From a virus, in the IMG/VR virus record IMGVR_UViG_3300031576_000073, positions 1 through 49,197 of that record: a stretch of 49,197 nt of DNA, one strand, 5' to 3'. Positions 1,732 to 41,923 of the stretch are shown here, piece by piece. A model generated the notes under the pieces. The model was not told the origin of the DNA. It saw only the letters and a program-made list of their open reading frames with translations, and searched no databases. Position numbers and translations under genes: made by a program. Every line of letters begins with the position of its first letter. Position 1 is the first letter of the stretch.

Positions 1732-3102
1732 ATGCGACAATTGATGCAACATCAAGAAGAAGCTATACAATTCCTTAGAACTAAATCATATAAAGCAGGT
1801 TTATTTTTAGCTCCTGGTACAGGTAAAACGTTAATAGCAATTAGAGTAGCTAAAGAATTCTTGCCTGCTTTGGTTATATGTAGACGAGACGATTTTCTTA
1901 CTTGGAGAAATGAATTATTTCAAGAAAGATATTATAAGGAAAATATATTATGTATTTTATCTGAAAATAGTCTTAAAAATTTAACTCACGCTTGGCCTTG
2001 GACTATAGTAACTTATGATTTATTAAAAAACAAAGAGATATATAATTATATATCCAACAAACAATACGGTATAGTTTTTGGTGATGAAAGTCATGCAATA
2101 AAGCATTGGGAATCTCAAAGAACTAAAGTAGTTTATGCAGCTACTCGTCACATAGATAAAAGAATCCTTATGACAGGTAGCCCTATAACAAATGAAATAT
2201 TAGACGTATATTCTCAATGTTTATTTATAGATAACGGGGAAACATTTGGCACTAGTCAATGGAAGTTTAGAAACAATTATTATATACAAAGTGGGCCAGG
2301 ATGGTACCCAAAAAAAGAAGCTAGGAGCATAATAGCTGAAAAGTTAAAGACAATATCCTATCATGTGCACGAAGATGATGTTCTAGATCTGCCACCTATA
2401 AGAACCGTGATAAAAGCTGTTCCTTTAACTATGGAACAAAGAAGATATTATAGTAAGCTAGTGACTAATTGGGAAATAGAATTAAAAAATGGAAAAGTAC
2501 TAGACATAAATTACATTATAGTTAGATTAGCTAAATTAAAACAAATGGCTGCTGGATTTTTCTACATAGAAAAAGAGCCAATATATATCAAAGAAAATAA
2601 AATAAGTTTATTACTAGACCTATTAACTGATAATGCTTATCTTGCCAAGAAGCAAAAAATAGTTATATGGGCATCTTATAGAGCTGAGATACGTAGAATC
2701 TTTCACAATCTAGAAAAAAATGGCTTGAGAACAGTAACATATTATGGAAATATGACCACACCACAGAAGAATGCAGCTAGAGAAAGGTTCAGAGATGATC
2801 CTAGTTGTAGGTTCTTCATAGGCCAGGTGGACTCAGGTGTTGGTATGAACGAACTGGTGGTAAGTGATTCTGCTGTTTATATGTCAAATAGTTTTAAAAT
2901 AGTTTCTCGCCAACAGTCTGAACGACGTATAAGACGTTATGGCTCAGAAAGACACGATAATATAACTTACTATGACATAGTAGCAGAAAAAACTGTTGAT
3001 TTTCCTATTCTAAAATCAATTAAGAAAGGAATGAACATAGCTCAAGACATTCTAAATCAAATAAAGCTCGGTACTTCCATAAAAAAACTGATAGGGTATT
3101 GA
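1732..3102 (+). CDS. SF2 DNA helicase, SNF2-like
   Basis: This 456-residue protein has the motif set of superfamily 2 helicases in order. The Q/N-terminal region is LMQHQEEAI. Walker A is APGTGKT (residues 27-33). Motif II is DESH (about 118-121) and motif III TGSPITN (about 148). Motif V is VDSGVGMN, and motif VI is QQSERRIRRYGS (about 394-404). The DESH box and the motif VI spacing match the SNF2-like helicases common in phages. Such proteins hydrolyse ATP to move along duplex DNA and are thought to help replication, recombination or protein removal. It lies directly upstream of a RecB-like nuclease, so the two may cooperate. Confidence 0.93.
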   Translation: MRQLMQHQEEAIQFLRTKSYKAGLFLAPGTGKTLIAIRVAKEFLPALVICRRDDFLTWRNELFQERYYKENILCILSENSLKNLTHAWPWTIVTYDLLKNKEIYNYISNKQYGIVFGDESHAIKHWESQRTKVVYAATRHIDKRILMTGSPITNEILDVYSQCLFIDNGETFGTSQWKFRNNYYIQSGPGWYPKKEARSIIAEKLKTISYHVHEDDVLDLPPIRTVIKAVPLTMEQRRYYSKLVTNWEIELKNGKVLDINYIIVRLAKLKQMAAGFFYIEKEPIYIKENKISLLLDLLTDNAYLAKKQKIVIWASYRAEIRRIFHNLEKNGLRTVTYYGNMTTPQKNAARERFRDDPSCRFFIGQVDSGVGMNELVVSDSAVYMSNSFKIVSRQQSERRIRRYGSERHDNITYYDIVAEKTVDFPILKSIKKGMNIAQDILNQIKLGTSIKKLIGY

Positions 3103-3150: not shown

Positions 3151-4137
3151 ATGAAAACACCCTTACCTTTACTTAGAGAATATCCTTTCCAAGAAAAAAT
3201 CCCTCCTCGACGTGAAGATTGGGTCTGGACAGTTTCATCTTTAAAATTATTTAGAAACTGCAAACGAAAATTTTATTGGAAATATATTTTAGGTCTTAAG
3301 CCTAGAAAACTTTCTTCTTCTCTTTATATAGGAAGTTTTGTCCATAGAATATTAGCTGACTGGTATACATTAAAGAATACTAGTATGGAAAATATTTTAG
3401 ATGAACATTTGCCTAAGATAGAAAAAGACATAGAAGGAAAGATTTGGGATCAAGATGAGTTAGATAAGATAGTAATAGCCTTAGAAACATTAAATGGGAT
3501 ATTCAGGGCTTATGAACAAGTTTATAAACAAGATCGTAAAAAATTGCAAATTGTTCATGTTGAAAAGAAATTAGAATTTATAGAAAATAATTTTAGCTTA
3601 GCTGGCAAGATAGACCTTATAGTTAAGAGTAATAAATTTTTTAATGTATGGGATCATAAAACAAGTTCTTTCATAGATAGCTCTTACCTAAATAGGTTAC
3701 CACTAGATACACAACTTAGGGGTTATGCTTACTTAGCGTATAAAAATAAGATGCCTGTAAATGAAGTTACTTACAACTGTATAAAAAAGTGTGCTCTTAG
3801 AAGAAAGTCAGGAGAATCAAGAGAAGATTTTTGTGATAGAATAGCTAAAGATTATATAAAAAGGAGTAGAATATATTTTCATAGAGAAAAAGTTGTAATC
3901 AGTATGGAGGACCTAAGAAGTTTTGAATATGAATTATTGCAAACCAATGATGAATTTCTTAGAATTTTTGAAAGTGGAGGTGTATTAGAGCCTAGAAACT
4001 GGGGTATAAATTGTAGTCATTGTTCAGCTTTCTTTAGGGACTGTGAATATTTAACTTTGTGCACACAAGGGGTAGATAAAACTGCTAAACTTATGTATGA
4101 AGAAGCAGAATTACATGAAGAGTTAGAAAATGAATAA
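3151..4137 (+). CDS. PD-(D/E)XK nuclease, RecB/Cas4-like, Fe-S
   Basis: The 328-residue protein shows the RecB/Cas4 nuclease layout (PDDEXK_1 superfamily). GSFVHR near residue 61 carries the helix histidine. The catalytic triplet follows as GKIDL (about 152), WDHKT (about 168) and QLRGYAYL (about 188). A cysteine at 37 (RNCKRKFYWKY) and three to four cysteines near the C terminus (CSHCSAFFRDCEYLTLC) match the four-cysteine iron-sulfur cluster of Cas4 and AddB nucleases. It probably resects or trims DNA ends in recombination. It follows the helicase closely and overlaps the next gene by eight bases. Confidence 0.9.
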   Translation: MKTPLPLLREYPFQEKIPPRREDWVWTVSSLKLFRNCKRKFYWKYILGLKPRKLSSSLYIGSFVHRILADWYTLKNTSMENILDEHLPKIEKDIEGKIWDQDELDKIVIALETLNGIFRAYEQVYKQDRKKLQIVHVEKKLEFIENNFSLAGKIDLIVKSNKFFNVWDHKTSSFIDSSYLNRLPLDTQLRGYAYLAYKNKMPVNEVTYNCIKKCALRRKSGESREDFCDRIAKDYIKRSRIYFHREKVVISMEDLRSFEYELLQTNDEFLRIFESGGVLEPRNWGINCSHCSAFFRDCEYLTLCTQGVDKTAKLMYEEAELHEELENE

Positions 4138-4944: not shown

Positions 4945-5682
4945 ATGATAACTAAAACAATACAATTAGATTTAAAACTTCCAACCGAGCCGACTAAGAG
5001 CAAATCGACATTTAAGGGATGCTTATGTTTATTTTATGGTGCGCCAGGGGTTGGTAAAACTACTTTTGTAAATAATCTTACAGCCAAAAAAGTTTTATTT
5101 ATATCTACAGATAGAGGCACAAGATATTTAGAAACCATGCGAGTGGAATGCAACTCTTGGAAGAAGTTACAACAAATACTTACTGCACTTAAAAAGGATC
5201 ATAAAACTTATGATTTTATTTGCTTGGATCATGTAGATGATATATGTAACTTAGCAGAGTCTAACGTTTGCGAAGAAATGAATATAGAGGCTTTAGGTGA
5301 TGCAGATTGGGGTAAAGGTTGGAAATTATATGAATCTAAAATTAGAAAGTTAGTGCAAGATTTACTCTCTTTAAGTTTAGGTGTTGTCTTTATTTCTCAT
5401 GAAGTTACAAGAACTAACAGGAGTAGAACTTTAGAATTAGAAGTTACTATGCCAGCTTTGAGTAAAGCTGCTGGTAAAGTAATAATTCCTATGTGTGAAA
5501 TTGTTGGGTACATATCAGTTAGAGTAATGAGGAATGCTGAAAAACAAAAAGTAAATAGACATGTTTTACAAACGCAACCAAAGGAGGAACTGTATTGTAA
5601 AGACAGAACAGATAGAAGGAAGAATAGTAAGGACTATGAGTTATTAAATGCAGAAGAATTCTTAAAAACTTTTGAGGTCTAA
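4945..5682 (+). CDS. Sak4-like RecA-fold ATPase, phage recombinase
   Basis: This 245-residue protein has a RecA/AAA_24-type core. Walker A is GAPGVGKTT at residues 32-40, Walker B is FICLDHVDD near 91-99, and a sensor-like strand (VVFISHE) lies near residue 149. This is the pattern of the phage Sak4 family and the related AAA_24 nucleotide-binding proteins. Sak4 proteins promote single-strand annealing and usually work with a phage ssDNA-binding protein. The next gene, two bases downstream, fits that partner. The start at 4945 has only a weak ribosome site. Confidence 0.85.
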   Translation: MITKTIQLDLKLPTEPTKSKSTFKGCLCLFYGAPGVGKTTFVNNLTAKKVLFISTDRGTRYLETMRVECNSWKKLQQILTALKKDHKTYDFICLDHVDDICNLAESNVCEEMNIEALGDADWGKGWKLYESKIRKLVQDLLSLSLGVVFISHEVTRTNRSRTLELEVTMPALSKAAGKVIIPMCEIVGYISVRVMRNAEKQKVNRHVLQTQPKEELYCKDRTDRRKNSKDYELLNAEEFLKTFEV

Positions 5683-5684
5683 TC

Positions 5685-6422
5685 ATGAAAATAGAAGGTA
5701 AGAAAAATATTAGTAGCTTACTTAAGAAATTAGAAGAATTTTGGGATACTCCAGAAAAAACATGGGGCGATGTTCCGGATGGTCCTTATCAAGTTAAAAT
5801 TGAAAGTGCTGTATTAAATGAAAGTAAAGCATCAGGTAGGTTACAAGTTTCTTTTCAATTTAATGTTTTAGAAGGTGATTTTATAAATAGAAAGATATTT
5901 AAACACTCAGGATTAGATAATGAGAGCAATATAGCATATTTTAGAGGGGATATAGGAAAATTAGGACACGAATGGCCTGAAACTCCTGAAGGATTAGAGC
6001 CTATATTAAATGAATTACTAGACTCTTGTGCTGAAATTAAGGTAAAAACTTCTGCAAGGGATGGTCAAGAGTATACAAATGTCTATATAACGAGAGCAAT
6101 TGATCCTATTCAAACTGAAGAAGAAGAACAGCAAGATATTGATGAAGTACAGATACAAAAAACCCCTAAGACTAAAAAATTCATACTGAAAAAGGAAGAG
6201 GAAGGGGAGAAGGAATTAACAATTTCATATCATTTTGAAGAGGACGATATAAACGATGCCCAGAAAGAAAAAATTATGAACATGGCCGAAAAAATGGAGA
6301 TGAATTTAGACTTATATAATGAATATATACAGATTTTAAAAGATATGTGTGAAGCTAATGAGCTTTCGGGTGCCTATGAATCTCCAAAAGCTGTTATACG
6401 TGCTATAGAGGCTGCTATGTAG
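5685..6422 (+). CDS. Putative ssDNA-binding protein, DUF669-like
   Basis: The 245-residue protein has a beta-rich N-terminal half (GPYQVKIESAVLNESKASGR, then LQVSFQFNVLEGDFINRKIF). This resembles the DUF669/OB-fold proteins that commonly sit beside Sak4 or RecA-like phage ATPases. A charged, glutamate-rich linker near residues 145-185 leads to a helical C-terminal domain. Acidic stretches of this kind often contact partner proteins in ssDNA-binding proteins. Position and spacing argue for co-expression with the ATPase. The family call is made from pattern and context only. Confidence 0.65.
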   Translation: MKIEGKKNISSLLKKLEEFWDTPEKTWGDVPDGPYQVKIESAVLNESKASGRLQVSFQFNVLEGDFINRKIFKHSGLDNESNIAYFRGDIGKLGHEWPETPEGLEPILNELLDSCAEIKVKTSARDGQEYTNVYITRAIDPIQTEEEEQQDIDEVQIQKTPKTKKFILKKEEEGEKELTISYHFEEDDINDAQKEKIMNMAEKMEMNLDLYNEYIQILKDMCEANELSGAYESPKAVIRAIEAAM

Positions 6423-7755: not shown

Positions 7756-8550
7756 ATGCGTCTAGTAAGCGGTATAGGATCTGAAGCTAGCGGGGCTTGC
7801 TGGATGTCAGCATTGCATTGGTACACCAGGATTGATCACTCCTGGAGTGATAACCCGCAATGTGTGTCACTAGTGGTACGCGAACTTTGTCTTGCACTGA
7901 ATGATATGTGCCATGACGATGAGCGTGAGGAGTTCATCGGCCCACACTTGTTTACTCCGATTGGTACTAATGTTGGGCATAAGGCTGAGCAGTTGCGAGC
8001 TTATCTTTGTGCCGATTATGCCGTGCGGGTGTTTGCTCCATATGCCCTTGAAGTTATTGGGCTAAATATGGAGGCTGCTAAACTTCGTAGTCTTAAGCCG
8101 ATCTGTGGCAAAATTTCTTCGGCGGCGGCAGCGGAGGCGATGGCGAAGGTGGCGATGATGAAGGCGGCAGCGGCGGATTCGGCGGCTCCGGCGGCATGGG
8201 CGACGGCGGCATGGGCGATGGCGACGGCGGCAGCATGGACGGCGGCGGCGAAGGCGATGGCGAAGACGATGGCGGCGGCGGCGATGGCGGCGGCGATGGC
8301 GACGACGGCGATGAATGTGGCGAATGCGGCGAGTGCGGCGGCGGAGGATGCGATGGAGACGGCGGCGGCAATGGCGGAGAAGGCAGTGGCGGTCAAAATG
8401 ATGGACCATGATCGACTAGCTATGGGGCGGAAAATAAAATCTTCGTTGCTCCGGTTGATCCTTGAATGTTGCGCAATCGGTACACGAAGGGAAATCCAGA
8501 CGACTAAAACAAAAGAAGAAGTGTTCGCAATGCTCGAAGCTGGAAAGTGA
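7756..8550 (+). CDS. Phage protein with alanine-rich repeat domain
   Basis: The 264-residue protein has a folded N-terminal domain (residues 1-120). Segments such as SGACWMSALHWYTRIDHSWS and IGPHLFTPIGTNVGHKAEQL match a conserved phage family of unknown function that often carries Ala-rich tails. Residues about 121-215 are almost entirely alanine with spaced Met, Trp, Thr and Lys, encoded by GCG/ACG/ATG triplet repeats. A charged C-terminal helix (KTKEEVFAMLEAGK) follows. The triplet repeat leaves all six frames open over 8117-8400, but only this frame has sensible flanks and a ribosome site (AAAGGA). Confidence 0.85.
   Translation: MRLVSGIGSEASGACWMSALHWYTRIDHSWSDNPQCVSLVVRELCLALNDMCHDDEREEFIGPHLFTPIGTNVGHKAEQLRAYLCADYAVRVFAPYALEVIGLNMEAAKLRSLKPICGKISSAAAAEAMAKVAMMKAAAADSAAPAAWATAAWAMATAAAWTAAAKAMAKTMAAAAMAAAMATTAMNVANAASAAAEDAMETAAAMAEKAVAVKMMDHDRLAMGRKIKSSLLRLILECCAIGTRREIQTTKTKEEVFAMLEAGK
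8117..8395 (+). repeat. GCG-rich triplet repeat tract
   Basis: About 280 bases of degenerate triplet repeat, mostly GCG mixed with ATG, ACG and AAG, lie inside the alanine-rich gene. The G at every third position makes spurious long frames on both strands. The tract is far more GC-rich than the phage average. It looks like slippage expansion or an acquired low-complexity segment kept in frame. Confidence 0.9.
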
Positions 8551-8553
8551 GAA

Positions 8554-8745
8554 ATGACAACCCCACATCGCTGTCCATTGTGTCTAGGCAAAGGAACCAT
8601 AACATGCCTTGATGTGCCGACCGAAGTACCCAGTACCAATATGAACAAGCGTACATGTCATGCTTGCAACGGGTTGGGAATCGTTTGGGAGCCGGTAAAA
8701 GACACTGGCACCGTTAGAACCGATTGGAATGAAACACGCCCTTAA
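8554..8745 (+). CDS. DnaJ-like zinc-finger miniprotein
   Basis: The 63-residue protein contains two CxxCxGxG elements, CPLCLGKG near residue 8 and CHACNGLG near residue 35. These are the zinc-binding repeats of the DnaJ central domain. Two such motifs can build one zinc site. Small proteins of this kind occur in many phages, and their partners are unknown. It follows the alanine-rich gene by three bases and ends just before a strong terminator. Confidence 0.85.
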   Translation: MTTPHRCPLCLGKGTITCLDVPTEVPSTNMNKRTCHACNGLGIVWEPVKDTGTVRTDWNETRP

Positions 8746-8756
8746 ATTTAAAGATT

Positions 8757-8809
8757 TCTCTTCATTTCTTTTCTTGGGGCCGGTGGCAACTTCGCTATCG
8801 GCCCTTTTT
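8757..8809 (+). terminator. Rho-independent terminator with pyrimidine tract
   Basis: An 18-base pyrimidine-rich tract (TCTCTTCATTTCTTTTCT, 8757-8774) precedes a hairpin with an 11-bp stem (8777-8787 with 8794-8804, two G-T pairs, loop AACTTC). A T-run follows at 8805-8809. The same 18 bases and a similar hairpin recur at 47637-47690. It would end the accessory transcript before the gene at 8825. Confidence 0.9.
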
Positions 8810-8824
8810 AATAAAGGATACACA

Positions 8825-9280
8825 ATGGACCGAAGTGGATACTATGATGATGATTGTGAAGCGACAAATTTGTGGAGAGGAGCAGTTCTTCAGACTATGA
8901 GCAGTAAAAGAGGAGTGGCATTGTTACGCGAACTATATACATATCTATTGCAGCTTAAATCAAAGAGGCTGTCGTATGGATTTCTATTTGACCAATACGG
9001 AGAAATGTGTACCGTCGGGGCGCTTTGTGCGAGTAAGGGTATAACAGCCGAAGACCTTAAGGATGACACGTCGGCTGAAGCTATAGCTGAAAAACTCAAC
9101 TGTAAGGCCACATTTCTTCGTGAAATAATGTACAACAATGACAGGTATGGAGAAACCGAAACGAATGAAAGACGATACGAAAGGATTCTAAAATGCCTGG
9201 ATAGCAAAACGATATGTCAGACGAATACCAAAGAGATCAAATGCGCAAGTATCATAAGAGATTTGAAGAACAAAATGTAG
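8825..9280 (+). CDS. Accessory phage protein with CTVGALC motif
   Basis: The ATG at 8825 (MDRSGYYDDD) lies after AAAGGATACACA and downstream of the terminator. I prefer it to an earlier ATG at 8729 that would run through the terminator hairpin. The 151-residue protein has a helical N-terminal part (LLRELYTYLLQLKSKRLSYG), the motif GEMCTVGALCASKG, and the segment FLREIMYNNDRYGETETNER. This pattern matches a phage-associated family of unknown function that I know only as hypothetical. It lies in a terminator-plus-gene unit like the one at 47637. Confidence 0.8.
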   Translation: MDRSGYYDDDCEATNLWRGAVLQTMSSKRGVALLRELYTYLLQLKSKRLSYGFLFDQYGEMCTVGALCASKGITAEDLKDDTSAEAIAEKLNCKATFLREIMYNNDRYGETETNERRYERILKCLDSKTICQTNTKEIKCASIIRDLKNKM

Positions 9281-9360
9281 CAACTATATTACGTAAGAAT
9301 CCTAACATTGGGCAGTATATATTGGCAAGTGATCTATCACAGACACGGAGGGTTCTTTAA
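9241..9360 (+). CDS. Possible 39-residue basic peptide
   Basis: An open frame of 39 codons starts with ATG at 9241, inside the end of the previous gene. It ends in TAATG, overlapping the next start. The tight stop-start overlap is typical of coupled phage genes. The peptide is basic (MRKYHKRFEEQNVATILRKN at the start). No strong ribosome site precedes it, so it may be spurious. Confidence 0.35.
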   Translation: MRKYHKRFEEQNVATILRKNPNIGQYILASDLSQTRRVL

Positions 9361-9653
9361 TGGCTGACTATAAGGCTTTCCTTGAACAACTTTTCGGCAA
9401 GGTTGGGGTCGAAAGCGATAAGTCTTTTCACCCCTTTATCTCTCACGACCCCGAGGGAGACTGCATCCAATTCTTCACGAAGCCAGATAGCTACCATGCG
9501 AAGCGCCTTAATGACCTATTAACGGTTTATCTGAGCCACGAAACCGGCGAAGTCACTGGCGCCATGATAAAGGGCGCTAAGAGATTCTGGCGCGAAACCC
9601 TCAAAAAGCTAGAAAAAGAAGATAATATATGCAACTACTGGATTACATTATAG
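9360..9653 (+). CDS. Conserved small phage protein
   Basis: The 97-residue protein has a clear ribosome site (CGGAGGG) and GC-richer codons than the primase gene that follows. Its core (HPFISHDPEGDCIQFFTKPD) and SHETGEVTGAMIKGAKRF resemble a small phage family with a DUF2283-like beta-sheet pattern, of unknown function. It overlaps the TOPRIM-MCM gene by 25 bases, so the two are probably co-translated. Confidence 0.8.
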   Translation: MADYKAFLEQLFGKVGVESDKSFHPFISHDPEGDCIQFFTKPDSYHAKRLNDLLTVYLSHETGEVTGAMIKGAKRFWRETLKKLEKEDNICNYWITL

Positions 9654-12475
9654 CTAATGTATCTCCACTACAGTTTTATAATGAATTCATAGAAAAAAAA
9701 TATAAGAGAAAAAATCAAGAAAATATAAATATACCTTGTTTATTTCACTATGATAAAAAGCCTAGTTTAAGTTTAAATGTACAAAATGGAAAATGGTATT
9801 GTCATGGATGTAAAATAGGTGAGAATTCAATAGTACATTTTCAGAGTCAACTAAATAAATGTAGTATTAAAGATGCTTGCTATTATATTTATAATAAACA
9901 TGTAAGAAAAATAATACCAAAAAGTAAAGTAATAAAATATCATAAAAATTTACTTTTAACTCCATCTATACTTAAATATTTAACACATAGAAAAATAAGT
10001 AACGAAATAATAAAAGAGCATTTAATAGGATTTGATGATAGAAGAATAACTATACCTATATATAATAAATTTGGATTTTGTATTAACATACGCAGATATA
10101 TAATCAATAGCAAAGCTAACTCAGAAGAACCTAAAGTAGTTAATTATACAGATTCAACAAGCTATAAATATGGTAGTCCTGTAGGATTATTTCCTATAAA
10201 ATCTTTATTAAATATAAGTAAAGATGAACAAATAGTTCTTTGTGAAGGAGAAATGGATACTTTGTCTCTATTAACTACGGGTGTGCCTGCTGTAACTATG
10301 ACAGGAGGTGCCGGTTCTTGGGCCAAAGAAGAGCAGTACTTGTTTGAGCTTCAAAAAGTTGTAATAGCTTATGATAATGACAAAGCAGGTACTATAGGTA
10401 AAAATATTGTATGTAAAGCTTTACAACATATAGCTAAAGAAATAAGAATATTAGAAATACCTCATAGTATAGGTAAAGATGTAAATGATTGGATTCTAAA
10501 TGACGCAAAAATGAGGAGTAGTATAGAGTGGTATAAAATTATAAATAATATACAACCAATTATAATAAACAATGAAAACAATATAACTTTTTCTAGAAAT
10601 AATTCTATACCTTTAGATAAAGCAAGTTTAGTTAAATATAGAGAGAGTGATGTAATCATCAACGGTCTAATAGCCGGAAAAGACTCTTGTATTTATAGCA
10701 TACCAAGTAAAATAGAAGTTATAGTAAAAAGAAATTGTCATAATAAAAATTGTTCTAGTAAACGTAAAGGAAAAAGTAAAGATGTATTTATAAAAGCTGG
10801 AGCAGACATATTAAATATAATTGATAAGCCAAATGATTATATTAAAAAATTTGTAACAAGAATGGCCGGTTATAGATGTACTAAATGTGAATATAGAACA
10901 ATAAAACATAATTATATAAATGTAGAACGGGTTATAGTTGTGCCAACAATAGATTCTAAGTCAGAAGAATATTTAAGAAAAATATGTTATTATACTGGGC
11001 ATGGTTTAAAAGTAAACAAAGCATATAAATTATTTGGGGTTCCTACGGAACATCCAGAAACTCAAGAATCTACACTTATATTTAGTAATCAAGAACCTCT
11101 GCAAGATCAAATAGATACTTTTAAAATAACTCCAGAAATGAAGCTTGAACTAGATTGCTTTAAGTGTAGACAAGGAAAGCCCATATTAAAACATTTATTA
11201 GAAATAGCTGAGTGGCAGTCAAAAAAAGTAACAAAAATATATGGTAGGGCAGATTTACATATAGCTATAGACTTAGTATATCATTCAGCTAAAAGTTTTA
11301 TCTTTATAAATGACATTGTAAAAAGAGGAATGTTAGACATCTTAATTATGGGGGATAGTAAATGTGGAAAGGGCGCTGTTGCTGAAGGACTAATGAAATT
11401 TTATAGTCTAGGAGACATAGCTTCAGGGGAAAACTGTTCTATTTCGGGTTTAGTAGGTGGTTGTGAGGCTACAGATAGTAAAAGATACATGATAAAATGG
11501 GGGATTATAGTTTTAAATAATAATAGATTAGTTATAATTGATGAAATATCAGCTCTAAATCATGAAGAAATAGCTCATCTTTCGAGAATTAGATCAGAAG
11601 GTGTAGCTGAAATTTTTAAAATAGCTAGAGAAGTAACAGAAGCTAACACTAGACTTATTTGGATAGGAAACCCAAAAGATGGCAAACAAATGGCATTTTA
11701 CGATCATGGAGTCAAGGCTATAAGAGATTTAATCGGTGCTTCTGAAGACATCAGCAGGTTTGATTTTGCTTTAATTGTTTCTAGTGATGAAGTTTCTTCG
11801 GACCTAATTAACTCTATACATGACAACTACTTAACTAACGAATGCAATTTTACAAAAGAAAAATGTAAGAATTTAATTCTATGGGCCTGGTCAAGAAAAC
11901 ATGAACAAATAAGATTTTCTAAGCTCGCTGTAAAAAAAGCTCTTGAAACATCTAAACTTCTAGGTACACTATACAGTGCTGAAATTCCACTGATACAAAT
12001 AGAAAATGTACGAATCAAAATAGCTAAAATTGCAGTAGCAATAGCTGCAAGATGTTTTAGTACAAATAAATCAGGTGAGTGTATAATAGTACTTAAAAAG
12101 CATATAGTAGCAGCAGTCAAATGGTTAAATAACATATATAGTAAGAAGAATACTTCATATAATACATTTAGTCAGCTAGTCAAAGAAAGGAAAATTATAT
12201 CTAACTTAAACAGTATAGAAGAAATGTTTGATAGGGAACCAAAAGAATTAGTTGACGGTTTGTTTACTCAATCTATAATAACATCAAGTTTAATAAAGGA
12301 TTATACGGGAAAAGATAATGTAGCTTCTGGAGAAATAATAGGAAGATTAGTAAGAACAAATTGTATTAAACAAATTAAACAAGGTTTCTATATGAAATCA
12401 ACAGTGTTTACAGATTGGTTAAAAGAAAGGAGATTAAATAAAGAAAAAAAGAACGGTGAGTCTATAGTGTTGTAG
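9629..12475 (+). CDS. TOPRIM primase fused to MCM-type helicase
   Basis: This 948-residue protein joins two replication enzymes. The N terminus has a primase zinc finger (C37, H40, C58, C61). A TOPRIM core follows with EGE at 206-208, DND at 249-251 and KDVNDW near 283. Residues about 340-500 carry a four-cysteine zinc site (C370, C375, C417, C420) and strands like an MCM OB-fold domain. The AAA+ part has Walker A GDSKCGKG (575-582), Walker B LVIIDEI (634-640), sensor-1 NP (681-682) and the MCM arginine-finger signature SRFD (709-712). A C-terminal winged-helix-like segment follows near 880-935. MCM helicases unwind DNA 3' to 5' as hexamers, so here MCM would replace the usual DnaB-type partner of phage TOPRIM primases. 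Confidence 0.9.
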   Translation: MQLLDYIIANVSPLQFYNEFIEKKYKRKNQENINIPCLFHYDKKPSLSLNVQNGKWYCHGCKIGENSIVHFQSQLNKCSIKDACYYIYNKHVRKIIPKSKVIKYHKNLLLTPSILKYLTHRKISNEIIKEHLIGFDDRRITIPIYNKFGFCINIRRYIINSKANSEEPKVVNYTDSTSYKYGSPVGLFPIKSLLNISKDEQIVLCEGEMDTLSLLTTGVPAVTMTGGAGSWAKEEQYLFELQKVVIAYDNDKAGTIGKNIVCKALQHIAKEIRILEIPHSIGKDVNDWILNDAKMRSSIEWYKIINNIQPIIINNENNITFSRNNSIPLDKASLVKYRESDVIINGLIAGKDSCIYSIPSKIEVIVKRNCHNKNCSSKRKGKSKDVFIKAGADILNIIDKPNDYIKKFVTRMAGYRCTKCEYRTIKHNYINVERVIVVPTIDSKSEEYLRKICYYTGHGLKVNKAYKLFGVPTEHPETQESTLIFSNQEPLQDQIDTFKITPEMKLELDCFKCRQGKPILKHLLEIAEWQSKKVTKIYGRADLHIAIDLVYHSAKSFIFINDIVKRGMLDILIMGDSKCGKGAVAEGLMKFYSLGDIASGENCSISGLVGGCEATDSKRYMIKWGIIVLNNNRLVIIDEISALNHEEIAHLSRIRSEGVAEIFKIAREVTEANTRLIWIGNPKDGKQMAFYDHGVKAIRDLIGASEDISRFDFALIVSSDEVSSDLINSIHDNYLTNECNFTKEKCKNLILWAWSRKHEQIRFSKLAVKKALETSKLLGTLYSAEIPLIQIENVRIKIAKIAVAIAARCFSTNKSGECIIVLKKHIVAAVKWLNNIYSKKNTSYNTFSQLVKERKIISNLNSIEEMFDREPKELVDGLFTQSIITSSLIKDYTGKDNVASGEIIGRLVRTNCIKQIKQGFYMKSTVFTDWLKERRLNKEKKNGESIVL

Positions 12476-12500: not shown

Positions 12501-13052
12501 ATGCAAAAAGATTTAGTTCGTAGTGTTAGACTTGAAAGAGATAGGCTTAATAAGGTTTTACAACTTTTAGAAGGAACTGACCAACCACAAATTGCAGTTT
12601 CAACAAGTTTGAACAAGCCTACTCCTGTTAAACTTCTTAAGCCTACTGCACCTACAGTTTCTACTGATGGTGGTAGGGCTCCAAGAGGTCAAGTTAAAGA
12701 AGATGCTTATGTAATTGTAGCTAGAGCTAAGGGAAAACCTGTCGCTGTTGCATCTGTAGTTGAACAGACAGGAAAACCTTACTCACAAGTCTATCTTACT
12801 ATGAGTAAAGACAGCAGGCTTAAAAAAGTGGGGAAAGCTTTATTTGCTATAGCTGGTGTAGCTAGTGGGGCTGGCGTAGTTAGTGGAGCTAGTGTAGGTA
12901 CTGTAAAAAAACTAAAAAAGATAGTTAGGGCTGTACCACAAGAGGAGCCTGAAGAACCTTCTGAGGAACCTGAGGAACCTGAAGAGCCTTCTGAAGATAC
13001 TGAAATGGTAGAGTTTTCTGATGATGCTGAAGACACTCAGGTAACAGAATAA
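12501..13052 (+). CDS. Winged-helix-like protein with acidic tail
   Basis: The 183-residue protein begins with a helical segment (RSVRLERDRLNKVLQLLEGT). After a Pro/Thr-rich linker comes a winged-helix-like middle domain (KPVAVASVVEQTGKPYSQVY and on, about residues 78-118). It ends in an acidic, proline-spaced tail of EEPEEPSE repeats. A DNA-binding middle with an acidic tail would fit a replication accessory or nucleoid-type protein. No family was recognised. It is followed by a strong terminator. Confidence 0.7.
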   Translation: MQKDLVRSVRLERDRLNKVLQLLEGTDQPQIAVSTSLNKPTPVKLLKPTAPTVSTDGGRAPRGQVKEDAYVIVARAKGKPVAVASVVEQTGKPYSQVYLTMSKDSRLKKVGKALFAIAGVASGAGVVSGASVGTVKKLKKIVRAVPQEEPEEPSEEPEEPEEPSEDTEMVEFSDDAEDTQVTE

Positions 13053-13151: not shown

Positions 13152-13367
13152 ATGGCTGAATCAATAGCTCTTTTTTGGATTTTAGCATGTGTAGTATATT
13201 CTATATTTATACTTTTATTGCCAATATTTGTATACCTATGTTATGCTATGCTAAAAGATTGTAGTAGATCATTGATTAAAATTCATGATGCAATTATTAG
13301 ACAGACAAATATACTTGAAGTTGAAACTATTACGAAACGCGAATTGTCAAAAATGTCTACTACATAA
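13152..13367 (+). CDS. Small membrane protein
   Basis: The 71-residue protein has a long hydrophobic segment at residues 5-34 (IALFWILACVVYSIFILLLP and on). A short, charged cytoplasmic-type tail follows. It overlaps the next gene by 83 bases in another frame. It would sit in the inner membrane. No family was recognised, and a link to DNA replication at the membrane would be speculation. Confidence 0.55.
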   Translation: MAESIALFWILACVVYSIFILLLPIFVYLCYAMLKDCSRSLIKIHDAIIRQTNILEVETITKRELSKMSTT

Positions 13368-13860
13368 AGGGGTAAAATCAGTATGTATTATTGGTAGAGG
13401 TTATGGTAAGATAATGCTTGTGGGAGAGGCCCCTGGAGAAACTGAAGATAGATTGGGTTTACCTTTTATTGGTAGGTCTGGAAAATGGCTTCAAAAATGT
13501 ATAAACGTTTTAGGGCTAAAAAATAATGTCTATATAACCAATGTAGTAAAATGTAAGCCACCAAATAATAGAAAACCAAAATGGAAGGAAATAGGTGCGT
13601 GTTCTAAATATCTAATGTCCGAAATAAAGCTATTAAATCCTAAAGTAATAGTAGCTATGGGAAAAGTAGCTACAGAAGCTTTAGCATTTAAAAGTATTAG
13701 AGGTTCAGAAGGAGCATTCTTTAGAAATTCTGAATTAGGAAATTATTATTGTATTTCTACTTGGCATCCAGCTTATTGTTTACGAACTGGAAGGCCGACA
13801 ACCACAGAATTTTTTGAGCATTTAAAATTAGCCAAGAGATTTATATGGAAGGTAACATAA
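13285..13860 (+). CDS. Family-4 type uracil-DNA glycosylase
   Basis: The 191-residue protein has the hallmarks of iron-sulfur uracil-DNA glycosylases. Motif A is GEAPGETED and is followed by FIGRSG. ITNVVKCKPPNNRKP and TWHPAY (motif B) come next. Cluster cysteines are C21 and C24, plus a CxxxC-type pair spaced by 15 residues in the middle (KC...AC). These enzymes remove uracil from DNA. Its place just before the polymerase, overlapping that gene by 16 bases, suggests a role in keeping uracil out during copying or in acting beside the polymerase. The start is uncertain because the frame overlaps the membrane-protein gene. Confidence 0.9.
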   Translation: MMQLLDRQIYLKLKLLRNANCQKCLLHKGVKSVCIIGRGYGKIMLVGEAPGETEDRLGLPFIGRSGKWLQKCINVLGLKNNVYITNVVKCKPPNNRKPKWKEIGACSKYLMSEIKLLNPKVIVAMGKVATEALAFKSIRGSEGAFFRNSELGNYYCISTWHPAYCLRTGRPTTTEFFEHLKLAKRFIWKVT

Positions 13861-15737
13861 TAACCGTTGATACAGAAACTACAGGATTAAATCCATATAG
13901 AGGTCATAGAATTTTCTGTTGGGGTTATATGACAGATAAAGGTGAGTATGGATTTTGTTCTAAGTCTAAAGAATCTATAGCATGGTTAAAAAAGCTACTA
14001 AATGATTCCACTAAAACCATAGTATTTCATAATGCTAAATTTGATCTTAAGATGCTTATGTTTGAAGGTATTGATATATTTAATCTTAAAGCAGATATAC
14101 ATTGCACACTAATATTATCTAAACTATATAGTATAAGTGGAAAATATAATCTTAGAAGCTTAGCTCAACAATATTGTAATAGAGATACTACCGACAAAGA
14201 TGAAATTATACTTTGGCTAAAAAGAAATGGTAGGCAGTTTGTAAAAGAAAATGGGAGGCCCCCTAATTTTAAAGATGCCCCTATAGAGCTAGTAAAAAAA
14301 AGGTGCTTGTGGGATGTAGAATCTACTTTACTCCTATTTATAGCCCTAAGAAAAAAGGTAACTTGGGATAAAGAATTATCTAAATTATACGATACAGAAA
14401 GAAAAATAATGTATGTATGCATAGATATGGAAAATACTGGTGTAAAAGTAGATAGAGCTAGAGCAATAAAATTAAAACAAGAATGTAAATGGGGAGTAAG
14501 AACTCTTCAAAAACTATTAAATTCTATAGTTTGTCCTTTACAAATAAGAGAAGAAAAAGTTATAGATTTTAAAGCTAATAGTAGTGCGCTTCATTTACCA
14601 GCAGCATTTAAAAAATTAGGTATAAGACTAGAATACAGAACAAAACCAAAAATAATAGGAAAAAACGAAGGTAAATGGTCTTTTGATCGTTATTCTATGT
14701 TACAGTATACTCATAAACATTTAATAAAATTGATGAGGGTATCTAGTGAAAAAGGATGGAAAATAAAAGACTTTTATAAAATCTTTGCAGCCCAAGTTAA
14801 AAAATATAGACTAAAAAAGAAAGATTGTTTTCCTGCTATAGTTCTAAAGATAAGAGAGCAAATAAAACTTATATCTACTTATTATGATAATATACTAAAT
14901 GAATCTATAGTAAATACAGGAATACTACATGGAACATTTAATCCTTCTCAAGCTATAACAGGAAGATTTAGTTCTAGTAATCCAATTAACTTACAAAATA
15001 TTCCAAGGCTTTCGGGTCCAAGAGAATGTTTCATTTGTAGAGATAATACAGTTAATGTATACTTTGATTATAAACAAGTAGAAATGAAATTCTTTGTTCA
15101 TTTTGCTAAAGATAAGTTAATGGCTAAGGCCATAGAGGAAGATATACATATTTATGTGGCTACTCAAATATATAAACTTCCTAAAGAACAAATAACTAAA
15201 GAACAGCGCCAACGAGCAAAAGGTATAAATTTCGGTATTATTTATGGAGCAGGACCAAATAAAATTGCAGAGACTCTAACAAAAGATGGATTACCTACAA
15301 ATGAATATGAAGCAAGGGTACTGTTTGAAAGTTACCATGAATCATTCCCATCTGTGCAAGAAACTACAAATAAAATAAGATTAAAGCTTCTTCGCGAAGG
15401 ATACATCTCCAACCCTTTCGGTAGAAGGTACCACATTCCCACGCATTTGGCCTACAAGGGGCTCAACTACCTCTGCCAGGGTACCTCAGCAGACCTCATG
15501 AAAGAGAGCATGGCGAGGATCTGGAGCTTCTTAAACGTGAATGGTCTTAAATCTAAAATAATCCAGACAATCCACGATGAGCTTATTGTAGAGATTGCCA
15601 TGGATGAGCAAGAAATCATACCTAGAATAAAATCTCTTATGGAAGACCATAAGAGATTTTTCTTACCAATTACTGTAGATATTTCTGTATCTACAAGCAG
15701 ATGGAGTGAAAAAGAAGAATGGAAAATAACATTATAA
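13845..15737 (+). CDS. polA: Family-A DNA polymerase with 3'-5' exonuclease
   Basis: The 630-residue protein has an N-terminal DnaQ-like exonuclease (DTETTGL at residues 9-15, HNAKFDLKML near 63) and a PolA-type polymerase domain. Motif A is FDYKQVEMKFF (about 405), motif B is RAKGINFGIIYG (about 459-470) and motif C is IHDE (about 577). The template-binding HGTFNPSQAITGRFSSSNP and LQNIP segments are intact. It would be the replicative polymerase, as in T7-like phages. The stretch 15385-15545, covering the segment after motif B, uses GC-rich codons unlike the rest of the gene, suggesting a recombined patch. Confidence 0.97.
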   Translation: MEGNIITVDTETTGLNPYRGHRIFCWGYMTDKGEYGFCSKSKESIAWLKKLLNDSTKTIVFHNAKFDLKMLMFEGIDIFNLKADIHCTLILSKLYSISGKYNLRSLAQQYCNRDTTDKDEIILWLKRNGRQFVKENGRPPNFKDAPIELVKKRCLWDVESTLLLFIALRKKVTWDKELSKLYDTERKIMYVCIDMENTGVKVDRARAIKLKQECKWGVRTLQKLLNSIVCPLQIREEKVIDFKANSSALHLPAAFKKLGIRLEYRTKPKIIGKNEGKWSFDRYSMLQYTHKHLIKLMRVSSEKGWKIKDFYKIFAAQVKKYRLKKKDCFPAIVLKIREQIKLISTYYDNILNESIVNTGILHGTFNPSQAITGRFSSSNPINLQNIPRLSGPRECFICRDNTVNVYFDYKQVEMKFFVHFAKDKLMAKAIEEDIHIYVATQIYKLPKEQITKEQRQRAKGINFGIIYGAGPNKIAETLTKDGLPTNEYEARVLFESYHESFPSVQETTNKIRLKLLREGYISNPFGRRYHIPTHLAYKGLNYLCQGTSADLMKESMARIWSFLNVNGLKSKIIQTIHDELIVEIAMDEQEIIPRIKSLMEDHKRFFLPITVDISVSTSRWSEKEEWKITL

Positions 15738-24466: not shown

Positions 24467-27136
24467 CTACTCTCTTCCAGCACTAATTCTTCTAAGACTA
24501 GACACTATTTGTCTTTTAGATCGTCTAAAGCTATTGGCATCAGGGGTATTAACATATATATTTATTATAGAAGCCCCACCGCCAGAAGTATGCACACCTA
24601 ATCTACCACTGGAGTCTCTAGCTAAAGGTAGAATACCTTCAGTTTCAGTTTCAGACATCATACCTCTTTTACCAGAAGCAGAATATAAACTTGTAGGTTC
24701 AGATATAATGCTACCATACTGATATTTTACTGGTCGCGGACCAGAACCAGTGTCTATTGTAGCCACACCATCAGCCTCATCACCAACTCCTCCACTAAAA
24801 ATACTTGTACCTATTTGAGTTACTAAATTTGCTACTAGTTGTCCAGCAGGTTCAGTAACAGCTTTTCTAATTACTGCTGTACTAAGACTTCTTAGTAAAT
24901 CTCTTAAAATATCTTTAAGCTTAGCTGTTTGAAATATAAGTTTATCTAAAGCATCAGTAAAAGCATTACCTATCTCATCAGCAGTTTGTCTTAATTTATT
25001 TAATGTCTGTAATGTAGATATAAGCTTACCAAGAGCTTTTACTTCTGCATCTACAGCAATTTTTTCCTTATCACTTAAATCTCTAGTAAGATCATATAAT
25101 TGAAGCTGTTTTTCTCTTTCATTATTAGATAAACTTAAAACATCTATTTCTTTTCGTATTCTCTTTGCTATATTTTCAATTTCCCTTTGTTTATTTAATG
25201 TCTGTAATGTAGATATAAGCTTACCAAGAGCTTTTACTTCTGCATCTACAGCAATTTTTTCCTTATCACTTAAATCTCTAGTAAGATCATATAATTGAAG
25301 CTGTTTTTCTCTTTCATTATTAGATAAACTTAAAACATCTATTTCTTTTCGTGTTCTCTTTGCTATATCAGCAATTTCCCTTTGTTTATTACCTATATTT
25401 ACCAATCTCAATAATTCTGTGTATTTATCTATTTGTTCCTGAGTAATAATAGCATCATTCTGTGCAGCTATTCTTTTTACATCATATAATTCAAGTTCCA
25501 CTTCTCTAGCATTATTAACTAATTTAATGACGTTTAATTCTGCCTGTTTTCTACTAATTAAATCCTGTATTCTAAATTCTGCTGCTTCTTGTTGTCTTGT
25601 CTTTGGTCGATATGGTTCTTCTATTTGTAATGGTCCAACAAAATCAGGAGGATACGGTACTGATGGTGCTACATAATTTTCTGGTAATGGAGGCCCTTGA
25701 TCTACGTATGGTTTAAGTATACCTAAACCTATTCTTATTCTATCAGCTCCTCTTTTAGAAATTTCATTTACATCATTCCAATAATCTACCCATAACTTTT
25801 TAGTTTCTCTAACATCATGAGAACTAAAAAAATCTACTAGAAATTTACCAAACCTAGCAGCTTCCTCTATATGTGTACTAGTTACATCTTTCAATATAGC
25901 GGTTCCTGGCATAAGTCTATAACGTACTCTATTTAATGTAGTACTTATTTTCTCCCACTCTTGTCCCCATCCAGCTAAAGCTCTTATACCAGCATTTATT
26001 ACAGTAAGTAAATCCTTGATAGCACCAATAAGACCAGCTTCACCAGTATCTACAGCTATTTGCTGAAATGTAGAACTAAGCTTATTAAGTTTAGCATTTA
26101 TAGATTCATCTAGCATGCCTGAAAATTCTCGTACAGTACCACCTGCATTTTTTAGTAAGCTAATAAATTCTTCTATTTTAGTTGTAGATTTAAGCATGTT
26201 AATTACATCTACAACATTTCTACGCTCGAATAAAAATGGAGCTTTACCTATGTCTATTTGTACCTTATTATATGCTTTTAGTACATCTACAAATTTATGT
26301 GTTATAGGACTAGCTTCATCAACATTCTCTATTAACTCTTCTAATACTCTTCGTTGCTCTTGAGTTGGTCTTATCATAGTTATTAGTGTACTTCTAAGAG
26401 CCGTACCAGCAGATTCTCCAACTCTTCCAGCATCAGCTAAAACCACTAATAAAGCAGCTACTTCCTCTATTTGATTACCAGCAGCAGAAAATATAGGTCC
26501 AGCTTTTTGAAATGCTTCAGTTATCTCACCAATATTTGTTTTACTAAGTCCAGCAGCTAAAGCAAAAACATCTGTGACTCTCTCAGTTTGATCTATACCT
26601 AAACTAAATTGTACAAGCGCATCTGTAACAGATTTTACAGCTTGTTCCATACCAATCATACCTACAGAAGCAAATTTCATTATAGGCGCAAGAGCTACCA
26701 TTACATCTTTAGCACTAAAACCAGCTTTAACTAAAGTAGTTAAACCTTCTGTAGCTTGTATAGCAGAAAACCTTGTTGCATTGCCCATTTCAAAAGCAAC
26801 ATCTTTTAACTCATTAAAACTTCGTATTTGTTCTTGTACAGGTACCCTAGGATCTATTAAATGACCTCTTAATCTAATAAGAGCTTCATCCATTTCTCTA
26901 ATAGTATCTATGCTAGCTTTTATACCGCGCAAGGCAGCAAAAGCAGCTCCAAAGGCTAAAAAGCGTGTAGTGAACGCCGCTAAATAACTAGAGCTACCTA
27001 TAAGCTTTCTATCTAAGCTCCCCATAGAAAGATTAAGACGATTAACCGTTCCAATAGTTATACCCATCTGAGTTGAAAGCTGAGCTAAAGCAGTCTGTGC
27101 TTGCTTACTTTGTATAGCGAGACTTAGCGTAGCCAT
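24467..27136 (-). CDS. Tape measure protein
   Basis: The 889-residue protein has the TIGR01760-type N-terminal half, with GNATRFSAIQATEGLTTLVK, AAGLSKTNIGEITEAFQKAG and VGESAGTALRSTLI, a long coiled-coil middle, and a glycine-rich end. It sets tail length and passes through the membrane on DNA injection. The middle contains two nearly identical 65-residue repeats (NNEREKQLQLYDLTRDLSDK in both), so the tail may be longer by one unit. It lies between the tail chaperones and the distal tail gene, as expected. Confidence 0.95.
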   Translation of the reverse strand: MATLSLAIQSKQAQTALAQLSTQMGITIGTVNRLNLSMGSLDRKLIGSSSYLAAFTTRFLAFGAAFAALRGIKASIDTIREMDEALIRLRGHLIDPRVPVQEQIRSFNELKDVAFEMGNATRFSAIQATEGLTTLVKAGFSAKDVMVALAPIMKFASVGMIGMEQAVKSVTDALVQFSLGIDQTERVTDVFALAAGLSKTNIGEITEAFQKAGPIFSAAGNQIEEVAALLVVLADAGRVGESAGTALRSTLITMIRPTQEQRRVLEELIENVDEASPITHKFVDVLKAYNKVQIDIGKAPFLFERRNVVDVINMLKSTTKIEEFISLLKNAGGTVREFSGMLDESINAKLNKLSSTFQQIAVDTGEAGLIGAIKDLLTVINAGIRALAGWGQEWEKISTTLNRVRYRLMPGTAILKDVTSTHIEEAARFGKFLVDFFSSHDVRETKKLWVDYWNDVNEISKRGADRIRIGLGILKPYVDQGPPLPENYVAPSVPYPPDFVGPLQIEEPYRPKTRQQEAAEFRIQDLISRKQAELNVIKLVNNAREVELELYDVKRIAAQNDAIITQEQIDKYTELLRLVNIGNKQREIADIAKRTRKEIDVLSLSNNEREKQLQLYDLTRDLSDKEKIAVDAEVKALGKLISTLQTLNKQREIENIAKRIRKEIDVLSLSNNEREKQLQLYDLTRDLSDKEKIAVDAEVKALGKLISTLQTLNKLRQTADEIGNAFTDALDKLIFQTAKLKDILRDLLRSLSTAVIRKAVTEPAGQLVANLVTQIGTSIFSGGVGDEADGVATIDTGSGPRPVKYQYGSIISEPTSLYSASGKRGMMSETETEGILPLARDSSGRLGVHTSGGGASIINIYVNTPDANSFRRSKRQIVSSLRRISAGRE
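24995..25388 (-). repeat. 195-bp tandem duplication in tape measure gene
   Basis: Two copies of a 195-bp segment lie head to tail; for example TAATGTCTGT is found at 25001 and again at 25196. They differ at only a few positions near the ends. The period is exactly 65 codons, so the frame is kept. The near identity suggests a recent duplication. Confidence 0.93.
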
Positions 27137-40484: not shown

Positions 40485-41923
40485 GTAATGCTCCTTAAGA
40501 CTATAGGATATTTCTCAGCAATGTAATATCCAACAGCATCGCTCAGGTGAGTGAGTTTCTTGTCTGCATTTTTATCTATCTCTCCAGAAGTGCCTTCTAT
40601 AACTGTCACTCCCTCGAAATCTTTTATAAGACGGGGGCAACCCACGGGGTCTACGAGAAACCTAACGGTATTGTCCATGGAGAGCAAACGAGAGTTCATA
40701 GCGTTTATTCTCGGTCGCTGGTTTGGATTTTGTCTGGGATAACTAAAGTGAAATTGTCCTTGATTATAAGCTTCGCGATAATGTTCAGCAAAATATCTAC
40801 GGATAATATCCCAGTCCGACCCCGCTATTTTAGCGGAGCCAGAAGCTCCTCCTGTAGAGTCACCATAAAAGTATATATGCCCACCTCGGTCTATATGAGG
40901 AGTCGTATATGTGAGAGAACGGAGTTTCTCACATACACGAAGTGTATTAGATATTTTGGGTATGTAAACTTCCTGGATGGCGTGTGAGCGGGAGACTCCA
41001 CTGCTTTGAGTGGAGTCTCCTCTCAGAGTGGAGGAGTCTCCTCCACTCAGAGCAGCGGAGACTCCGCTGAGTACACCGGAGTCTCCCATCTCCTGTATTA
41101 CCACAGCCACTCCAGGGTCCCTATTAAAATCAAAACAAAATATTAAATCCTGCTCGGGGGTGTAATATAGACGAGTAGAGGCATGTAGCTCACGAGAGAA
41201 GGGGGGATACGCCCGTCCCTGAAAGGATATAAAACTTGCTTCATATTCTTGCGCGTAGGTCAAAGCGTCCAGGCTCGACTTAGCTGAGAGTATCTCCTCC
41301 GGGGGTAAAATATCTTCAGACTTCCAGGTGAAAGCGGCCCAGTCGGAGGCTCCGCCCCGCTGAGCGGAGGAGCCTCCGCTCAGAGCAGCGGAGGCTCCCT
41401 CTGCCTGTCTCTCCTGAGCCTCCTGATATAGATCATAAAAGTGATTCCGACCCTCTGGAACTCCTATGATAATAGCCCAGCCTGGAGGACGTCCTTCTGT
41501 GAACAAAGCTGGACGTACATGCTCCGGCCAGACAGAAGGTTTCATGTTAGCATACTCATCTAGAATTATACCATCCAGAGGGGTGCCTTCTATACGTTCT
41601 GGCATATCCATGCCTGTAACTGTAATAGCGGAGCTAACAATGGTATGAACAGTTAAATCTGCCTCAGCTATCTTTCGGACTAAAGAATGAGGTAGTAACC
41701 TCTTCATATCTCGCCAAAATATTCTTTTTGATTGGGAATATGTTGGTGCTGAACATACATAATTGGCGTCTAATATTGGAGGATTGAGGGCTCTCTGTAT
41801 CAGAAGTTTTTTAGCTATATCTGTCTTACCGGAGCGCCTCCCTGCGGCTACCACAATGAATCTTGCTAGGCAAGCTATAAGTTGTTGTTGTATTTTATGA
41901 TATCTATATTTATTCCATAACAT
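40466..41923 (-). CDS. Terminase large subunit
   Basis: The 485-residue protein has an N-terminal ATPase with Walker A GRRSGKT (28-34) and Walker B GIILDEYA (118-125). The C-terminal RNase H-fold nuclease has Asp residues in FCFDFNRDPG (about 265), FYGDSTGG (355) and THLSDAVGYY. It cuts and pumps DNA into the head. Two glycine-serine-rich inserts, residues 176-193 and 280-313, interrupt the usual family sequence. They are encoded by GC-rich GGAGNCTCC palindrome repeats. The nearby codons are also GC-richer than in neighbours. Packaging should not be blocked because the inserts fall outside the motifs. Confidence 0.95.
   Translation of the reverse strand: MLWNKYRYHKIQQQLIACLARFIVVAAGRRSGKTDIAKKLLIQRALNPPILDANYVCSAPTYSQSKRIFWRDMKRLLPHSLVRKIAEADLTVHTIVSSAITVTGMDMPERIEGTPLDGIILDEYANMKPSVWPEHVRPALFTEGRPPGWAIIIGVPEGRNHFYDLYQEAQERQAEGASAALSGGSSAQRGGASDWAAFTWKSEDILPPEEILSAKSSLDALTYAQEYEASFISFQGRAYPPFSRELHASTRLYYTPEQDLIFCFDFNRDPGVAVVIQEMGDSGVLSGVSAALSGGDSSTLRGDSTQSSGVSRSHAIQEVYIPKISNTLRVCEKLRSLTYTTPHIDRGGHIYFYGDSTGGASGSAKIAGSDWDIIRRYFAEHYREAYNQGQFHFSYPRQNPNQRPRINAMNSRLLSMDNTVRFLVDPVGCPRLIKDFEGVTVIEGTSGEIDKNADKKLTHLSDAVGYYIAEKYPIVLRSITSQAYA
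40991..41086. repeat. GGAGNCTCC palindrome array inside terminase (five cores)
   Basis: Five palindromic cores GGAG(A/T)CTCC begin at 40991, 41012, 41033, 41057 and 41078. The spacing is 21, 21, 24 and 21 bases, always a multiple of three, so the reading frame is kept. The protein reads GDSGVLS, GVSAALSG, GDSSTLR, GDSTQSS, GVSRS. Between the cores, TCAGAG and CACTC elements recur. Confidence 0.93.
41345..41398. repeat. GGAGNCTCC palindrome array inside terminase (three cores)
   Basis: Three cores, GGAGGCTCC, GGAGCCTCC and GGAGGCTCC, begin at 41345, 41369 and 41390, spaced 24 and 21 bases. They encode GASAALSG, GSSAQRG and GAS. The element CTCAGAGCAGCGGAG is shared with the array at 40991, so the two have a common origin. 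Confidence 0.93.

Follow-up and report, generated by a model that had tools for sequence, protein, structure and literature searches.

A primase and an MCM helicase in one reading frame

The virus record IMGVR_UViG_3300031576_000073 of IMG/VR (49197 bases, all of which were analysed and are called the window here) carries tailed-phage structural genes. An open reading frame (ORF) extends from an ATG at 9629 to a stop codon at 12475 (9629..12475 with the stop) and encodes 948 amino acids with no internal stop. It lies on the plus strand, as do its domains and the neighbouring cassette genes assigned below. Its product, TOPRIM-MCM, is a single chain in which a zinc ribbon of the DnaG type and the TOPRIM core of a primase precede a complete MCM with zinc/OB N-tier, AAA+ domain and winged helix. 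In this bacterial virus, one protein joins a bacterial-type primase and an MCM helicase. MCM is the ring motor for DNA copying in archaea and eukaryotes. In textbooks, bacterial DnaB is paired with DnaG, and the MCM of archaea and eukaryotes with an AEP primase.

A sequence-only reading of this ORF had named a primase zinc finger and a TOPRIM domain (EGE, residues 206-208; DND, 249-251), and both were recovered with the motifs as quoted. A DnaG-type CHC2 zinc ribbon (residues 27-90, 9707..9898) matched Zn_ribbon_DnaG (PF01807) above the cut-off at E 1.8e-8; its ligands, by alignment column counts, are C37, H40, C58 and C61. A DnaG-like RNA-polymerase N-terminal subdomain follows at about residues 98-195 (9920..10213). 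It was placed by a weak DNAG_N match, by the alignment, and by DnaG structures from the PDB that match at profile positions about 132-295. Its K169 is conserved in 49 of the 51 relatives aligned. The TOPRIM catalytic domain (residues 203-288, 10235..10492) matched Toprim_2 (PF13155) at E 3.9e-12, likewise above the cut-off, with the metal-site residues E208, D249 and D251 present in 51 of 51. The best PDB sequence matches of this half were DnaG structures (2au3, E 2e-27 with a profile query), suggesting a DnaG-type primase that would synthesise primers. A flexible linker (residues 315-323, 10571..10597), the sole segment with a predicted confidence (pLDDT) below 50, leads to the MCM half.

The same reading had listed an MCM zinc/OB region, Walker A and B, a sensor asparagine, SRFD and a winged helix. 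Pfam, hhalign, and AlphaFold2 (AF2) with Foldseek agreed on these. The N-tier (about residues 325-500, 10601..11128) is an OB fold with a zinc site, as indicated by hhalign, by the strands of the model and by four conserved cysteines (C366, C370, C375, C420). The AAA+ P-loop domain (residues 534-719, 11228..11785) matched PF00493 at E 4.4e-10 (39.5 bits against a cut-off of 23.3) and was also found by Foldseek. Within it lie Walker A, GDSKCGKG (residues 575-582, 11351..11374), a helix-2 insert (about residues 596-624, 11414..11500), Walker B, LVIIDE (634-639, 11528..11545; D638 and E639 each in 50/51), and a pre-sensor-1 beta-hairpin (659-671, 11603..11641). In the model, DSSP gave the insert as strand-helix-two strands, aligned with the MCM insert; the hairpin has strands at 659-663 and 667-671 ahead of the sensor-1 strand, and its K664 is kept in 41/51. 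Sensor 1 is N681 of N681-P682 (11669..11671, 51/51), the arginine finger is R710 of SRFD (709-712, 11753..11764, 51/51), and sensor 2 is R795 (12011..12013, 49/51), aligned with the MCM sensor-2 helix. The C-terminal winged helix (about residues 860-925, 12206..12403) was modelled as helices followed by a two-strand wing, with pLDDT about 92.

Of the profiles named for checking, PF00493 and TOPRIM (Toprim_2) matched, whereas PF17207 (MCM_OB) gave no match at sequence level; both the model and the profile-profile alignment nonetheless contain the OB/zinc domain. Against a profile of eight archaeal MCMs from viruses and plasmids, hhalign gave 99.4% probability (E 8.8e-22) over 538 columns from OB through winged helix, that is, from archaeal MCM residue 98 to the MCM C-terminus. 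The unmatched first ~97 archaeal residues correspond to the helical A-domain. In this alignment the A-domain had no counterpart in the MCM half, so the primase occupies its place. We did not regard this N-terminal domain as essential for membership of the MCM family.

AF2 models were built from the alignment of 51 relatives, with phage-database rows left out. Mean pLDDT was 89.6 for the whole protein; the C-terminal 624 residues alone gave pLDDT 92.3 and a predicted TM-score (pTM) of 0.88. For both models all 50 PDB matches listed by Foldseek were MCM, with E from about 2e-25, and no other AAA+ family appeared among them, in agreement with the proposed likeness to archaeal MCM. In the reverse search, with an archaeal plasmid MCM as query, archaeal viruses ranked first and the best true bacteriophage matches were members of this phage MCM family (E 6e-6 to 1e-5). 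Matches in Listeria 'phage' sequences were read as a MoxR-type ATPase and set aside. Profiles and predicted fold together confirm the C-terminal half as an MCM helicase of superfamily 6 (SF6), pre-sensor features included. By homology it would form a hexameric ring and unwind DNA 3'-5'.

Relatives, Walker A variation and exchange of the primase

An IMG/VR scan with the single sequence found nothing; an alignment query succeeded. With it, 356 loci passed the tblastn filter, some possibly through the TOPRIM half alone, and the best 80 were kept. Among the 51 aligned members, 49 match Toprim_2, 47 match MCM and 37 match Zn_ribbon_DnaG in Pfam, and the first two counts rule out a chance reading frame. 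Mean identity among them is about 34-38%. All eight catalytic residues tested (E208, D249, D251, K581, D638, E639, N681, R710) are kept in 49/51, and only 4.8% of columns are as conserved as these. Distances in the primase half and in the MCM half correlate (Mantel r 0.81; 0 of 2000 permutations reached that value), so the two halves have been passed on jointly. Both activities look selected, to judge from this conservation.

The fusion is present in named phages: Bacillus BSTP5, BSTP8, BSTP10, BSTP12 and BSP7, Weizmannia Youna2, Paenibacillus API480 and SV21, and Arthrobacter Wollypog. A family member is also encoded in 36 Microbacterium records (Krampus group). Youna2, BSTP12 and Wollypog exceed the Pfam cut-off for MCM, whereas the matches of API480 and Krampus fall short of it. 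Since the scan of genome contigs yielded two loci only, a phage family is likelier than a bacterial one. Annotations of the relatives read 'DNA primase', 'primase/helicase', 'DNA primase small subunit' or 'DNA directed DNA polymerase'. In PHROGs, the MCM half of the window's protein has its best match in phrog_18685, 'unknown function', and the first 337 residues match 'DNA primase' families. The paper that describes the Krampus group names a DNA primase only, and the word helicase never occurs in it (PMC7302621). TOPRIM-MCM is a widespread, misannotated phage family and is not unique to one genome. No earlier description of it was found in the literature searched, although an earlier survey of viral replication proteins outside that literature may mention it.

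One feature had gone unflagged in the sequence-only reading: the Walker A motif ends in GKG, not GKS or GKT. The Walker A Ser/Thr normally binds Mg with the nucleotide. In the window's protein K581, which is invariant, is followed by G582 in place of this residue. CGKG was found in the window and in six relatives (loci L007, L009, L010, L024, L074 and L088), and the other 46 rows have GKS or GKT. A complete Walker A ending in K-S/T is thus present in the rest of the family and absent from the window's sub-clade. These seven form one clade (support 100/98; 98 in the tree with L009 included), so the change has become fixed and does not stem from an error in sequencing. K581, the Walker B DE, sensor 1 N, the arginine finger and sensor 2 are kept in all seven.

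The primase is not the same throughout the lineage. In Bacillus phage vB_BboS-125 and on a B. velezensis plasmid, the MCM half is preceded by an AEP primase (DNA_primase_S, E 4e-10). Among other phage proteins, those nearest to this MCM half are TOPRIM-MCM proteins, at E about 1e-57. The MCM halves of BboS-125 and the window share 29% identity over 551 amino acids (E 3e-56); their N-termini gave no significant alignment. AEP-MCM proteins with 56-100% identity were found at 21 IMG/VR loci, one being BboS-125 itself. The AEP version was also found on a Fermentibacteria contig from a metagenome-assembled genome (MAG) (L089:4644-8828), its primase half being 32% identical to that of BboS-125 (E 3e-50); a LAGLIDADG intein-like insert lies within its MCM part.

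Versions with MCM only (among them L088:2435-4354 and L074:8777-10639) were found on a Candidatus Gracilibacteria MAG contig and on IMG/VR contigs. L074 and L088 belong to the CGKG sub-clade. The MCM-only loci share Sak4 and DUF669 genes with the cassette described below, and L074 additionally has SNF2 and PolA. Given how short these contigs are, the same genomes could still encode a primase in another place.

In trees made with IQ-TREE, phage MCMs formed a single branch against archaeal MCMs (100/100), and the MCM-only members grouped with the window's sub-clade (100/98). A second tree omits Paenibacillus API480, whose long branch had joined the outgroup in the first. As judged from these trees and alignments, the same phage MCM lineage carries a TOPRIM primase, an unrelated AEP primase, or none. 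The three states require at least three changes on a tree whose deep branches are poorly resolved and whose Fermentibacteria row is long. MCM-only as the ancestral state was considered and found unsupported: these members are nested with the TOPRIM-fused sub-clade inside the phage branch.

Gene neighbourhood and other features of the record

TOPRIM-MCM lies in a cluster of replication and recombination genes. Upstream are an SNF2/UvsW-type superfamily 2 (SF2) helicase (1732..3102; PF00176, E 4e-14; synteny in 34 loci), a PD-(D/E)XK exonuclease of the Cas4/RecB-like kind (3151..4137; PF12705, E 4.5e-24; synteny in 35 loci), a Sak4-like AAA_24 ATPase with a RecA fold (4945..5682; PF13479, E 2.5e-34), whose L074 homologue matches the Sak4 PHROG, and a DUF669 protein (5685..6422; PF05037, E 7e-7). 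The BSTP12 gene at the cassette position of the last is annotated as a putative single-stranded DNA-binding protein. Downstream are a protein of the uracil-DNA glycosylase superfamily (13285..13860; PF03167, E 1.9e-29) and a family A DNA polymerase with a 3'-5' exonuclease domain (13845..15737; PF00476, E 5e-65; PF01612, E 3e-14). The order SNF2/UvsW helicase, PD-(D/E)XK exonuclease, Sak4-like ATPase, DUF669, TOPRIM-MCM, uracil-DNA glycosylase, PolA recurs in relatives.

A DnaB-like helicase had been reported absent from the genome, and this held. DnaB_C had no match in the window's own record or in the records of 47 relatives, nor in six further records with an AEP or TOPRIM version; the positive control, T7, matched at E 7e-20. 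When a second helicase was sought in the genome, only the SNF2/UvsW-type one was found, and the only other RecA-fold ATPase noted was the Sak4-like one.

Adjoining the TOPRIM-MCM gene upstream, 7756-9653 holds three ORFs found in no fetched relative; GC content is 0.44 in 8-10 kb and 0.30-0.37 around it. Directly after the gene, a small ORF (12501-13052), likewise found in no fetched relative, contains a repetitive Glu/Pro-rich coding stretch (12930-13001).

Both ends of the record (1-354 and 48642-49197) consist of GC-rich 23-bp tandem repeats, about 15 and about 24 copies, in an otherwise AT-rich genome. The unit is identical and in the same orientation at both ends. The assembly probably broke inside one repeat array, and the record is therefore probably complete except for the array length. 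The array is a possible origin, packaging or terminal element. Repeats rich in GGAG/CTCC, similar in composition to these units, occur at 41012-41398 within the large terminase gene. An AT-rich noncoding stretch of 1.1 kb (43115-44234) is a candidate replication origin. It contains several inverted repeats and a directly duplicated segment of 33 bp, and cumulative GC skew reaches its minimum nearby (about 44-46 kb). A gene block at 45220-48013 is duplicated, with stretches of 67-130 bp that are 84-93% identical between 45.2-45.5 kb and 47.7-48.0 kb and a diverged third copy at 46.27 kb. The tape-measure gene contains, at 24977-25390, two nearly identical tandem copies of 195 bp, a length divisible by three.

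Proposed role and comparison with known systems

We consider it likely, with a probability of about 0.77, that TOPRIM-MCM is the phage's own replicative helicase-primase. This agrees with the interpretation first offered, with two qualifications: the fusion is widespread, and with the GKG Walker A the ATPase activity of the window's sub-clade is putative. Enzymatic activity is predicted here from sequence. The C-terminal half would assemble into an MCM-type AAA+ hexamer around one strand, by homology the leading-strand template, and would move on it 3'-5' like BcMCM, the AEP-MCM of a B. cereus prophage. The OB/zinc N-tier would face the fork and lead. To it the TOPRIM primase would be tethered by the short flexible linker, at the place of the archaeal A-domain, a position comparable to the docking of Pol alpha-primase on eukaryotic CMG and here held covalently. 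RNA primers would be laid on the excluded lagging strand and extended by the phage PolA. We infer each of these steps, loading at an origin included.

Several points weigh against this role. The Mg-coordinating Ser/Thr is missing from the P-loop of the window's sub-clade. TM-scores were moderate for the whole chain and reached 0.66 for the MCM half. The membership of BcMCM in the AEP-MCM group found here is putative. None of the usual MCM loaders (Cdc6/ORC-like) was seen that could load the helicase. The literature search found no biochemistry on any TOPRIM-MCM member.

An accessory helicase-primase, serving recombination-dependent replication or restart while host DnaB and DnaG do the bulk of replication, would fit a gene that adjoins the Sak4-like ATPase, the PD-(D/E)XK exonuclease and the SNF2/UvsW helicase. 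We think this unlikely: the phage polymerase lies in the same cluster, DnaB was found in none of the 47 relatives' records searched, and a fusion of this kind drives the fork in T7-like systems. Rather unlikely, too, is an MCM half with the true fold and a weak or dead ATPase in the sub-clade, acting as a ring scaffold or origin binder while host DnaB unwinds. The restriction of GKG to one clade speaks for it. Yet the other catalytic residues are intact in all seven members, the MCM-only members retain the motor despite having no primase, and no DnaB or helicase-loader gene that could recruit the host enzyme was identified.

Doubts about the identity of either half carry far less weight. TOPRIM domains occur also in OLD nucleases and topoisomerases, and the TOPRIM half might be of such a type, not a primase; this is very unlikely given the DnaG zinc ribbon ahead of it, DnaG as its best PDB match and its alignment with the T7 gp4 primase. 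That the AAA+ half belongs to another family with a pre-sensor-1 hairpin (Mg-chelatase, MoxR or SF3) and merely resembles MCM could be argued from an identity to MCM of only about 15% and from altered IDE-FDKM and KAGI signatures (here LVIIDEISA and FKIA). We rejected this as highly improbable on the Pfam and fold evidence: MCM scored over the cut-off, Mg-chelatase and MoxR gave no Pfam match, the similarity spans OB to winged helix, and the top 50 PDB folds were all MCM.

Beyond a replicative helicase-primase in this phage, we suggest tentatively, at slightly under even odds, that the phage MCM lineage is a universal fork motor with an exchangeable primase head, TOPRIM/DnaG or AEP, that can also be lost. 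The TOPRIM primase would then travel at the front of a helicase moving 3'-5' and prime the excluded strand, opposite to DnaB-DnaG and T7 gp4, and the window's sub-clade would do so with a P-loop lacking the Mg-coordinating Ser/Thr.

In this family the textbook helicase/primase pairs are crossed within one chain, and one helicase backbone bears different primases. With it one could cleanly test whether proximity alone governs priming or whether the polarity of the strand or the position of the tether matters. Its occurrence in cultured phages of convenient hosts (Bacillus subtilis, Microbacterium and Arthrobacter) offers single-protein models of an MCM fork in bacterial hosts, and annotation can be corrected for many phages listed with a 'DNA primase' and no helicase. 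AEP-MCM and TOPRIM-DnaB fusions were already known, which limits the novelty; as far as we searched, this fusion is an unrecognised variant of the known primase-helicase fusions. The history of primase swaps and the unusual P-loop raise its interest beyond that of one odd gene.

The contrast drawn earlier with TOPRIM-DnaB fusions and with AEP/PrimPol-MCM proteins was borne out. T7 gp4 and Twinkle likewise place a DnaG-type zinc ribbon and TOPRIM domain N-terminal to a hexameric helicase. The gp4 primase is homologous to the window's TOPRIM half (hhalign 92.7%, E 4e-7), whereas its helicase is unrelated to the window's (0.2%). The gp4 motor is a RecA-fold DnaB that travels 5'-3' on the lagging strand, and its primase acts on the strand that the helicase extrudes.

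Archaeal and archaeal-virus MCMs share with the phage protein the OB/zinc N-tier, helix-2 insert, pre-sensor-1 hairpin, SRFD finger, sensor 2 and winged helix. They differ in having the helical A-domain where the fusion has a primase, and they form a separate branch with about 15% identity.

AEP-MCM proteins, of the BcMCM type and in vB_BboS-125, are likewise one polypeptide in which a primase is followed by MCM zinc/OB, AAA+ and winged helix, and the BboS-125 gene also adjoins a UvsW-type helicase and PolA. Their primase has the AEP fold, unrelated to TOPRIM/DnaG, and the BboS-125 Walker A is GKS where the window has GKG. BcMCM showed 3'-5' unwinding, ssDNA-stimulated ATPase and primer synthesis (PMC4538821).

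The SCCmec proteins Cch and Cch2, MCM-like helicases of staphylococcal cassettes with a separate primase or none, are mobile-element AAA+ helicases of 3'-5' polarity (PMC7581432). In the Cch2 operon the helicase is a separate gene and the primase is of the polymerase type, CCPol-MP (PMC7581432), in contrast to the fused TOPRIM primase of the window. In CMG, primase is held at the N-tier side of MCM, over the channel between zinc fingers from which the lagging strand emerges (PMC10501992).

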